NCBI GenBank assembly: GCA_015056925.1 | Contig: SVFJ01000018.1 | Location: forward strand, 1-46,411 | DNA: 46,411 bases | Origin: Lachnospiraceae bacterium | GTDB taxonomy: Bacteria; Bacillota; Clostridia; Lachnospirales; Lachnospiraceae | Direction of reading: 5' to 3' | Shown here: piece by piece, positions 11,374 through 23,699 of the stretch | Layout of the letters: every line of letters starts with the position of its first letter | Position numbering within the stretch: position 1 is the stretch's first letter | Translations under genes and position numbers: made by a program | Notes under the pieces: generated by a model | What the model saw: only the letters and a program-made list of their open reading frames with translations | The model's database searches: none | Told to the model about the DNA's origin: nothing

Positions 11374-11381
11374 AATGGGAC

Positions 11382-11654
11382 GGTGCTTCAGTACTGTGCT
11401 ATTTAAAACGGACTATATTTTATAACAAAAGTTTAAGCTACGAGCATAAGATTTGCTAAATGTTTTTATATAAGTGTTCTCTATGTACGGAACCGGCGCA
11501 TATTCGACATCCTTGTCTCAAATGCGCCTGCTGCCTTCATCCAAGCGGCAGCTTCCTATGGATTCCAAAACATTAACCAAATCTAAATACTCTTCGCAAT
11601 ACTTTTGCCTATAAAATATAGTCCGTTTTTGACGTGACACAGCGCTTAAGCACC
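11382..11654 (+). repeat. Structured intergenic element, copy A (full length, + orientation)
   Basis: A 273-base nested structure between two convergent genes. The outer helix is GGTGCTT (11382-11388) with AAGCACC (11648-11654). A perfect 20-bp stem joins 11405-11424 to 11610-11629 and is followed by TTTTT. A further long helix (around 11450-11468 with 11567-11584) encloses GGAA (11489-11492) pairing TTCC (11553-11556). That encloses two hairpins: GGCGCAT/ATGCGCC (11495-11501/11522-11528) capped by GACA-TCCT-TGTC, and GCTGCC/GGCAGC (11530-11535/11547-11552) with loop TTCATCCAAGC. The same architecture recurs in copies B and C. Confidence 0.85.
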
Positions 11655-11691
11655 TGTGTATATGAATTTTTTTGAAAAATTGAGTAACGTA

Positions 11692-11834
11692 ACACTTTGC
11701 GATTAGACTACGAAAGAAAAGACTGTAATTTGTAATCAAAAGTATTGTGCAGAGCATTTAGTTATACTTGATGTTCGGAACTCTAACTTTTGATACAAAC
11801 TACAGTCTTTTTATGTAGTATAATTGCAAAGTGT
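11692..11834 (-). repeat. Structured element, copy D (internally deleted, - orientation)
   Basis: This copy has the outer parts of the element but not the two-hairpin core. ACACTTTGC (11692-11700) pairs GCAAAGTGT (11826-11834), ACTAC pairs GTAGT, and AAGACTGTAATTTGT (11719-11733) pairs 11795-11809 with one mismatch. The inner flanks (the TTTAG...CTTGATGTT side and the CGGAACTC...ACTTTTGA side) match copy C closely but are joined directly, so roughly 130 bases of core are missing. It lies just after the 3' end of the AraC gene, in the same direction as that gene, and may serve as its transcription end. Confidence 0.75.
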
Positions 11835-22273: not shown

Positions 22274-22300
22274 TAAATTCGGGTTTGTCGAACTGTTCTC
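22274..22300 (+). repeat. Left arm of a 27-bp inverted repeat enclosing the repeat-rich region
   Basis: Centred on GGGTTTGTCGA. It matches the reverse complement of 23330-23356 at about 22 of 27 positions. It sits between the GH112 terminator and structured element B. Confidence 0.7.
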
Positions 22301-22534
22301 GGCGCACGCCCTAACAGGTTTCATTCGAAAGCAGGAGCTCCGGGTTAAGAGTTTCTAGGTGCTTTTATATAGGTGTTCTAAGACATACGGAACCGGCGGC
22401 GATTCGGCATCCGTGCCTCAGATTGCCGCCTAGCGCCTTCATCCAGGCGGCGCTTTCCTATATGTTCAAAAAGCACTAAGAAACTCTAACACCCTACGCC
22501 GGCTTTCTGCATGAAACCTGTTAGGGCTTTCGCC
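22301..22534 (+). repeat. Structured intergenic element, copy B (full length, + orientation)
   Basis: Same plan as copy A with different stems. GGCG/CGCC is at the ends, and a perfect 17-bp stem joins 22308-22324 to 22511-22527. GAAAGC/GCTTTC is inside it, followed by a long helix ending in GTGCTTTT/AAAAGCAC. GGAA (22389-22392) pairs TTCC (22455-22458), enclosing GGCGGC/GCCGCC capped by GGCA-TCCG-TGCC, and AGCGCC/GGCGCT with loop TTCATCCAGGC. Paired positions differ from copies A and C in a compensating way, while the loops and the GTGTTCT segment are conserved. Confidence 0.85.
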
Positions 22535-22700
22535 TGGGTAGTCGAATATTCCTATTGTTAATATGTGTTATTTCTGCTAAATTGGGGTTTAGTTGAGTTA
22601 GGAGAGTCAAGTGATAGAATATGCACGCTCATTCGCCGTGCCAAGGCGCTTGTTCATGGATATGAAGCTTTATTTCATGTCTGATTTGTTATAAATTGCT

Positions 22701-22951
22701 ACAGTTGGTCTTTTACAAATGAAATAGGAGTAAAAGACCAACTGTTAAGGATTTACTTGGTCTTTCGTAAGCGAAACAGTGCCAAAAGACCAACTGTTAA
22801 GGATTTACTTGGTCTTTCGTACGTGAAACAGTGCCAAAAGACCAACTGTTAAACATTTACTTGGTCTTTCGTACGTGAAACAATGCCAAAAGACCAACTA
22901 TTAAGGATTTACTTGGTCTTTTATAGGTGTAGAAATAATATAAGACCAAGT
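22701..22951 (+). repeat. Tandem array of 52-bp units with AAGACCAA/TTGGTCTT hairpins
   Basis: Four units begin at 22732, 22784, 22836 and 22888, an exact 52-base period. Each has AAGACCAA, a 15-base loop, TTGGTCTT, then a linker with TTTCGTACGTGAAA-like inverted bases and CAGTGCC. The array is opened by a 16-bp perfect inverted repeat (22701-22716 with 22730-22745) and closed by CTTGGTCTT/AAGACCAAG ending near 22951. Each arm could pair with the neighbour on either side. Units are nearly identical with no unique spacers, so it is not a CRISPR array. It has no visible coding potential. Confidence 0.85.
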
Positions 22952-23063
22952 GACGCAATTAAAATATTTTTTTAAGCTTCAGCAGTCGAACACACCACTT
23001 GCTGCGCTAGCACACCTAAACCAAAATTTAATTGATTACGAATCTATTGTTTGATTACCTCAA

Positions 23064-23329
23064 GCTTTGCTTGGATGATACGAAAGAACAGACTCTATTT
23101 GTCGTAAAATGTATTGTGGAGAGTATTTAGTGGTTCTTGATGTTTTTAGAGACAATAGCAAGCCGCCGCCTGGACGAAGGCGGCAGTAGCCAATTGAGCC
23201 AAGGATGGCGAATCGGCTGCGGTTGCGTACGTTTTAGAACACTTAAATAAAAACATCTAGCACCACTTATGCTCGGAACTCCTACTTTTGAGACAAATAG
23301 AGTCTGTTTGTGTATCAGTCAGGCAAAGC
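23064..23329 (-). repeat. Structured intergenic element, copy C (full length, - orientation)
   Basis: Inverted relative to copy B. GCTTTGC (23064-23070) pairs GCAAAGC (23323-23329), and a perfect 17-bp stem joins 23087-23103 to 23292-23308. Read on the - strand, GCAA pairs TTGC where A and B have GGAA/TTCC. The first hairpin is capped by GCCA-TCCT-TGGC, and the second is GCCGCC/GGCGGC with loop TTCGTCCAGGC. The outer flanks (ACGAAAGAA, CTAAATACTCT on the - strand) are shared with copy D. Confidence 0.85.
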
Positions 23330-23356
23330 GGGAACTGCTCGACAAACCCAGATTTA
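23330..23356 (-). repeat. Right arm of the 27-bp inverted repeat
   Basis: Contains TCGACAAACCC and pairs with 22274-22300. Together the arms bracket a 1.08-kb block holding element B, the 52-bp array and element C. Confidence 0.7.
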
Positions 23357-23526: not shown

Positions 23527-23624
23527 TAAAAAACAAAGAAGCCCGATAAAATCGGGCTTCCTGTTTGTGTAAAAGGGGAATTCTTCCGGAATTGCTAATT
23601 AGCAAGTTCAGCATTGCTGCTAAA
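23527..23624 (-). ncRNA. Candidate small RNA, about 98 nt
   Basis: On the - strand a TATAAT at 23636-23631 would start a transcript near 23624. It would end at a strong intrinsic terminator: GAAGCCCGAT/ATCGGGCTTC (23551-23560 with 23538-23547) followed by TTTGTTTTTT. The body folds into small hairpins (CAGC/GCTG, TTGCTAATTAGCAA) and has no convincing reading frame. The -35 hexamer is poor. The same terminator could instead serve read-through from the VanZ gene. Two cre-like boxes lie upstream. Confidence 0.4.
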
Positions 23625-23630
23625 CATGTT

Positions 23631-23659
23631 ATTATAATACACTCTACAACCAGATTAAT
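23631..23659 (-). promoter_or_regulatory. Candidate promoter for the small RNA
   Basis: A perfect TATAAT on the - strand (23636-23631), with ATTAAT 17 bases upstream (23659-23654) as a weak -35, which would suit an activator-dependent promoter. Confidence 0.4.
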
Positions 23660-23699
23660 CTATAACTATATTGCAAAAAAGTAGAACTATTTTGATTAG

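Follow-up and report, generated by a model that had tools for sequence, protein, structure and literature searches.

TwoAYGGAY copies in a Lachnospiraceae genome: a known RNA family as candidate cargo of MITE-like elements, with a possible tie to CsrA

What are the three long, foldable intergenic elements (A, B and C) in a 46,411-nt stretch of a Lachnospiraceae genome (contig SVFJ01000018.1; this whole stretch is referred to as the window), and are they RNAs, mobile DNA or both? Rfam models identify all three as full-length matches to TwoAYGGAY, RF01731 (A 101 bits, minus strand; C 90.6 bits, plus strand; B 90.2 bits, minus strand; gathering threshold 43), and these three plus one tRNA are the only gathering-level matches in the window. 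A, B and C are copies of a catalogued Rfam family of unknown job, and the preliminary description, which did not recognise the family, was looking at one already known. HEARO, omega RNA (IS605) and raiA are rejected as identities, none of them reaching Rfam gathering in the window. The three positions first given hold, the limits for A (11382-11654) being those of its stem, with a boundary motif just beyond them (11378-11659). A and B had been read opposite to the Rfam strand. The features are as follows.

11378-11659, minus strand: element A, full extent, with 5′ end ACACA and 3′ end GTCC; Rfam core 11435-11599.
11508-11515, minus strand: hairpin 2 loop of A, CAAGGATG, C-ANGGAN-G type; read from sequence.
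11538-11545, minus strand: hairpin 1 loop of A, CTTGGATG; GGA kept, first loop base U, not A.
11709-11817, plus strand: remnant D, a C-related copy minus about 120 nt of core.
22275-22292, minus strand: terminal inverted repeat at the left end of the B-C unit, differing from CTCGACAAACCCGAATTT at one base.
22297-22540, minus strand: element B, stem and core, outer limits by eye; Rfam core 22335-22501.
22408-22415, minus strand: hairpin 2 loop of B, CACGGATG; read from sequence.
22440-22447, minus strand: hairpin 1 loop of B, CCTGGATG; read from sequence.
22732-22949, no strand assigned: palindromic unit of 52 bp, repeated in tandem in the stretch from B to C (3.7 copies, with 94% matches in 22732-22921).
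23055-23335, plus strand: element C, stem and core, outer limits by eye; Rfam core 23114-23281.
23169-23176, plus strand: hairpin 1 loop of C, CCTGGACG; read from sequence.
23200-23207, plus strand: hairpin 2 loop of C, CAAGGATG; read from sequence.
23338-23355, plus strand: terminal inverted repeat at the right end of the B-C unit, differing from CTCGACAAACCCGAATTT at two bases.

The Rfam strand is the more stable one in every copy: −112.8 against −98.9 kcal/mol for A and, within limits chosen by eye, −126.0 against −119.3 kcal/mol for B and −125.5 against −102.5 kcal/mol for C. One shared fold with compensating changes had been claimed for the three, and the listed pairs are as stated when checked by eye in each. 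We aligned 31 diverse copies drawn from 13 genomes; in the consensus structure, taken from this same alignment, standard pairs fill 91.8% of 888 pair cells (62.8% after shuffling; at most 49.1% when the structure is slid, a lenient control because the structure derives from the alignment it tests). The covariation score of 0.749, compared with 0.204 for shuffled alignments (none of 500 shuffles reaches it) and at most 0.203 for slid ones, establishes that the claimed covariation is real. The outer stems are unrelated among A, B and C, as first described, yet recur in other copies of the same genome, so that by eye they form subfamilies. An odd hairpin 1 cassette lacking GGA, GCTTGTGACGACAAAGTGTTGCAAGCAACACTTGGGC, is common to copies C157, C125, C143:16117 and C131:15686 of the source genome and occurs across different outer-stem types, as if recombination had swapped hairpins (by eye).

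The covariance search for further copies that had been suggested for these elements yielded 43 RF01731 matches, 42 above cut-off, in the source genome of the window (G000; model search, 3.5 Mb, 183 contigs). Our copy set comprises 172 copies from 15 genomes, including all 43 of these, with 4 of 176 model matches left out as shorter than 120 nt; the totals of the genomes are at least these. Neighbouring copies show a marked orientation: all 19 pairs less than 600 bp apart run minus then plus, that is 5′-to-5′ (10 from the congener G030, which are not independent, 3 from G000, 2 each from G045 and G008, and the rest from G019 and G016), and among copies 600-1,500 bp apart there are 4 more 5′-to-5′ pairs and 3 tandem ones. 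Element A and remnant D make another minus/plus pair, D matching the flanks of C at 82% and 83% identity within a palindromic self-match at 11692-11834.

Single copies number 128; where one has co-directional genes on its two sides, it is antisense to both in 50 cases and sense in 15; merging copies with shared flanks (n = 46) leaves 33 versus 13 (P 0.005), and the raw count outside the G016/G019/G026/G028 clade, made by hand, is 26 versus 14. This antisense preference means that many copies may go untranscribed on the Rfam strand, and A, B and C themselves sit between convergent genes. Upstream of the 153 copies (of 172) with enough flank, a sigma-70 consensus is not enriched (best scores 8.38 sense, 8.56 antisense, 8.20 shuffled), leaving independent transcription unsupported, and an independent small RNA with its own promoter is rejected on this consensus, the sole one tried. 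Flanking sequence shows that some loci occur in more than one species (for example, G028:C2:220170, G019:C14:64003 and G016:C25:9435). Elsewhere in the collection, at positions 1501-2020 of locus L002, a T-box leader is followed by a same-strand TwoAYGGAY copy and then by a gene resembling pheS by eye.

Comparison with relatives bears on how the copies reached the window. Between aligned genes, the interval that holds A and D spans 489-491 bp here versus 61, 46, 57 and 34 bp in G013, G020, G009 and G018, and 564 bp here versus 141 bp in G001. The interval of B, the array and C spans 1,300-1,338 bp here versus 108 bp in G013, 97 bp in G001 and 133 bp in G020; the second anchor is missing from two further relatives examined. 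Elements are absent from both window sites in the relatives compared, the aligned flanking genes of which (66-79% identical) are too diverged for exact insertion points; we infer that the elements were gained in this genome and not lost from the others. At its outer ends the B-C unit carries CTCGACAAACCCGAATTT in inverted copies, which form terminal inverted repeats, and CTCGACAAACCCGAATTT occurs at 31 sites in the genome at up to 2 mismatches versus 1 for the reversed letters. No terminal repeat of the CTCGACAAACCCGAATTT type bounds A and D.

An exact scan of genome contigs for the terminal repeat found 48 stretches, mostly from Clostridia MAGs and some unrelated. In other Clostridia MAGs, both ends of the G000-type repeat AAATTCGGGTTTGTCGAG lie within 1 kb of each other in 9 of 14 loci examined, and 8 of these 9 AAATTCGGGTTTGTCGAG-bounded units are without a core match; the TwoAYGGAY core is present in 2 of 35 Clostridia loci scanned, both from one MAG. 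The few G000 units with both ends show no target-site duplication, most units being cut by contig ends. A general scan for inverted repeats with duplications scores 6 of 143 units at 20 or more versus 0 of 429 in the null, a weak scan on its own in which three of the six are the palindromic AGCCGGCT and 143 of 150 units had enough flank. The plasmid and phage collections searched hold no match to the B-C unit, and carriage of that unit by either is rejected on this ground. As side observations by eye, the 52-bp palindromic array units are TTGGTCTTTCGTACGTGAAACAGTGCCAAAAGACCAA-like, with similar pieces also next to other copies, at least C177 and C44, and many unit ends in the 3′ flanks of G000 copies lie within some 10-20 nt of the intrinsic terminator of a convergent gene, as if this were a target.

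The clearest units come from the congener G030, whose paired copies are bounded by GTAACAGTTCAGCC repeats, present at 337 sites versus 4 in a reversed-letter control. Target-site duplications (7-9 bp, at most 1 mismatch) flank 16 of the 28 bounded units in the G030 sequence examined versus 3 of 756 mixed-flank pairings. A core match reaches E 0.001 or less in 17 of the 28, in two of which the core is shortened; the duplication is present at 8 of the 17, and the core is undetected in the other 11; conversely, 20 of the 31 G030 cores first collected sit inside bounded units. The G030 units show the features by which MITEs are recognised: inverted repeats, target-site duplications, no gene and many copies. 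IS66-type elements have GTAA ends and 8-bp duplications. The IS66 transposase PF03050 was not found in G030 or G000, and no multicopy ORF other than the elements' own sequence lies beside the G030 repeats at 62 loci examined; these two results give an IS66 parent no support. At L258 1774-1960 in G030, the terminal repeats are those of the other units and an 8-bp duplication is present, but the hairpins in between differ: the MITE family carries other folded cargoes. The passages of TwoAYGGAY literature available to us, partly titles or abstract openings, hold no description of the family as mobile. The preliminary description had called the elements structured RNA or folding single-stranded DNA, not a transposon end. 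A structured family with covariation and many copies stands; the exclusion of a transposon end is contradicted by the absence of copies at both window sites in relatives and by the G030 copies inside inverted-repeat units with duplicated targets.

If the copies move as DNA, at which level is their pairing kept? We compared the two mismatches that tell the levels apart: an RNA helix tolerates G-U and not A-C, and a DNA palindrome treats both alike. The same strand-symmetric aligner was used for TwoAYGGAY and for a control of 30 large SRP RNAs (of 41 genomes with a match), which show 11 GU and 1 AC, only 12 mismatches in all. TwoAYGGAY stems, from 170 of the 172 copies, show 88 GU and 72 AC (64 and 60 in unique contexts), a bias different from that of SRP RNA (Fisher P 0.012). 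Within the Rfam core the stem has 38 GU to 17 AC (unique 23 to 14, P 0.19) and beyond it 74 to 63 (unique 50 to 56), with a looser first count of the outer arms giving 162 to 154. Mismatches number 7 GU to 1 AC in hairpin 1 and, muddied by an internal loop, 9 GU to 23 AC in hairpin 2; hairpin 1 stems use each of the four Watson-Crick pairs, and none of the 154 lettered cells at columns 55-59 is a G-U. Intrinsic terminators give 49 to 35 and tRNA acceptors 1 to 0; the terminators are a weak control, perhaps many of them bidirectional, and their counts stand partly against this use of the test.

One strand is nevertheless distinguished at the boundary, where ACACA-[stem]-GTCC is found in 69 of the 158 copies (of 172) with enough flank versus 1 on the opposite strand. 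Four control patterns give 0 to 6, and CA..TGCC gives 40 and 45 of 158, high because that pattern is self-complementary. The strand-specific features of the core are the GGA loops and the ACACA/GTCC boundary. On our reading the core works as a folded strand, probably RNA, whereas the outer stem changes in the manner of a palindrome in DNA, its pairing perhaps maintained at the DNA level. It had been proposed that selection acts on pairing, which remains plausible in general; RNA-level selection on the outer stem is unsupported, there being no preference for G-U over A-C.

The loops of the core point to a protein partner. Across 170 of the 172 copies (two partial ones left out), hairpin 2 has a C-ANGGAN-G loop in 157 and hairpin 1 in 103, with GGA in the hairpin 1 region of 161; the GGA loops persist although most stem pairs vary. 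In A, B and C all six loops hold GGA and one of six is strict AYGGAY, the hairpin 1 loops being YUGGAY, not AYGGAY. Passages of PMC7652899 give ANGGAN as the RsmE hexaloop by NMR and an optimal CsrA bridging distance of more than 18 nt (range 10-63 nt). The ANGGAN loops and the median spacing of the two GGA hairpins, 30 nt in the 170 copies, fit both (PMC7652899); the core has the GGA hairpin loops, at least two and spaced for bridging, that are looked for in a CsrA-sponge RNA. CsrA binding of TwoAYGGAY was proposed in 2014 by Gardner and Eldai from two motif matches, according to the relevant passage (PMC4333381). The entry in Weinberg 2010 marks the family as probably RNA and ‘n’ (probably not) for cis-regulatory (PMC2864571), and other TwoAYGGAY literature, in the portions accessible, uses the family as an example or improves its structure.

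The distribution of CsrA agrees with this proposal. Among 353 genomes (a relatives sample and an order sample, merged by hand), CsrA is found in 35 of 35 with TwoAYGGAY versus 188 of 318 without (hypergeometric P 3.6e-8), and in 31 of 31 when only genomes over the RNA cut-off count. In the relatives sample the RNA occurs in 16 of 98 genomes, all 16 with CsrA (77 of 98 overall); in the order sample it occurs in 22 of 295, all 22 with CsrA (177 of 295 overall). Within the family the figures are 29 of 29 RNA genomes and 84 of 106 overall (P 3.3e-4). Relatedness, genome incompleteness and flagellar motility, CsrA travelling with flagellar genes, confound these counts, and the co-occurrence supports, without proving, a putative dependence on CsrA. 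The source genome has a fliW-csrA pair. At the sole locus scanned in G092 (L060), no core appears at E 0.001 (18.5 bits, E 0.0064). Several genomes have more than one CsrA match (G016 5, G019 8, G026 4 and G028 7), including a lower-scoring second type.

On balance we lean towards an explanation in which TwoAYGGAY copies are cargo of transposase-less MITE-like elements, often in 5′-to-5′ pairs, with a core that binds CsrA and an outer stem kept as DNA. Small palindromic mobile elements without a transposase would spread TwoAYGGAY as cargo; a transcript of the Rfam strand would fold into a core displaying two GGA hexaloops about 30 nt apart, with one CsrA dimer bound. The scattered copies could then titrate CsrA or bring host transcripts under its control, and the long outer stem would be kept paired mainly as DNA (transposon end or hairpin), not as an RNA helix. 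A bolder version, which we advance tentatively, is that of a mobile CsrA decoy: MITE-like elements of Lachnospiraceae-type Clostridia with twin CsrA sites, often in divergent pairs, spread only in csrA hosts, whose stem, in displaying the RNA core, would be kept as DNA through its second role as the transposon palindrome. Just as speculatively, such decoys would provide a genome with dozens of dispersed CsrA sites, by which the regulator is titrated or rewired.

Three other explanations compete for the same observations. The structure might work wholly as DNA, a folded strand or cruciform serving element movement with its GGA loops read by a recombinase, in the way of the hairpin ends of IS200/IS605-type or attC-type elements. 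Stem mismatches without an RNA-strand bias (unique 64 GU to 60 AC, against 11 to 1 for SRP RNA), hairpin 1 stems that vary through all Watson-Crick pairs with no G-U in 154 cells, and the strand-specific ACACA-[stem]-GTCC boundary (69 of 158 versus 1) all suit it. It would nevertheless make coincidences of the CsrA co-occurrence and the ANGGAN match, and the inner stem (38 to 17; unique 23 to 14, P 0.19) and hairpin 1 (7 to 1) lean towards G-U. A Y1 transposase (PF01797) is absent from the genome (0 of 1), and derivation from a single-strand Y1 transposon of the IS200/IS605 kind is rejected on that absence. Double-strand transposition by DDE enzymes is expected to leave inverted repeats and duplications of about 8 bp, and the G030 units have both. 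We regard a purely DNA-level role as rather improbable, though a serious contender.

That the fold serves neither host nor element, being a palindrome that mobile elements have inherited, is distinctly unlikely: strand-symmetric stem mismatches and the persistence of core-less or shortened derivatives (D, and 11 of 28 G030 units without the core plus 2 shortened) are what such inertia would produce, whereas the conservation of GGA loops on stems that vary at most of their pairs, loci common to species by their flanks and the presence of CsrA in all 35 RNA-bearing genomes tell against it. Least probable is a cis-regulatory leader, the type given in the Rfam label. Some copies do lie just upstream of same-strand genes, and the L002 copy follows a T-box leader; against this are the 33 copies antisense to both neighbours versus 13 sense among 46 flank-merged singles, the convergent genes around A, B and C, and the ‘n’ in the Weinberg 2010 entry (PMC2864571).

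The explanation we lean towards, mobile cargo with a CsrA-binding core, relates the window's elements to several described systems. They agree with TwoAYGGAY in over-gathering full-length matches, two GGA-loop hairpins and a strand-specific core, and differ in that element A exceeds the Rfam model by 57-60 nt at both ends, as far as the boundary motif, and in having many copies, often in 5′-to-5′ pairs and partly on MITE-like units, features unstated in the passages of literature consulted. With CsrB, CsrC, RsmY and RsmZ they share repeated GGA hairpin loops that could titrate CsrA (passages of PMC4333381, PMC4383904 and PMC7652899). Unlike those RNAs, the elements have two sites only, in dozens of dispersed copies with no promoter found, and they sit on mobile units in a Clostridia lineage with FliW. 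Like bacterial MITEs, the units are short, gene-less and high in copy number, with inverted repeats and 7-9 bp duplications (in G030), but many of them hold a structured RNA core that, like its loop motif, is conserved. BOX, bcr1 and REP/REPIN repeats are modular, palindromic and intergenic, and sometimes form inverted pairs; for the elements here, the genome has no Y1 transposase (PF01797).

TwoAYGGAY, an orphan since 2010, thereby acquires a candidate job: it would carry twin CsrA sites, and every host seen to date has csrA. Its scattered multicopy pattern would be explained by travel as a MITE passenger. Judged from sequence comparison, this is a known RNA family, here apparently mobile-element cargo, whose tie to CsrA is firmer yet still a candidate one. 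If true, mobile repeats can spread sites for a global RNA regulator. Counting G-U against A-C mismatches beside a known RNA control also offers a simple test of RNA-level versus DNA-level stem conservation.

Beyond the right end of the B-C unit, the window holds a further non-coding block at 23529-23698, kept at 79-88% identity in 14 of the 22 congeners searched. It matches no Rfam family at gathering and has a terminator-like hairpin on the minus strand; it looks like an undescribed small RNA gene.
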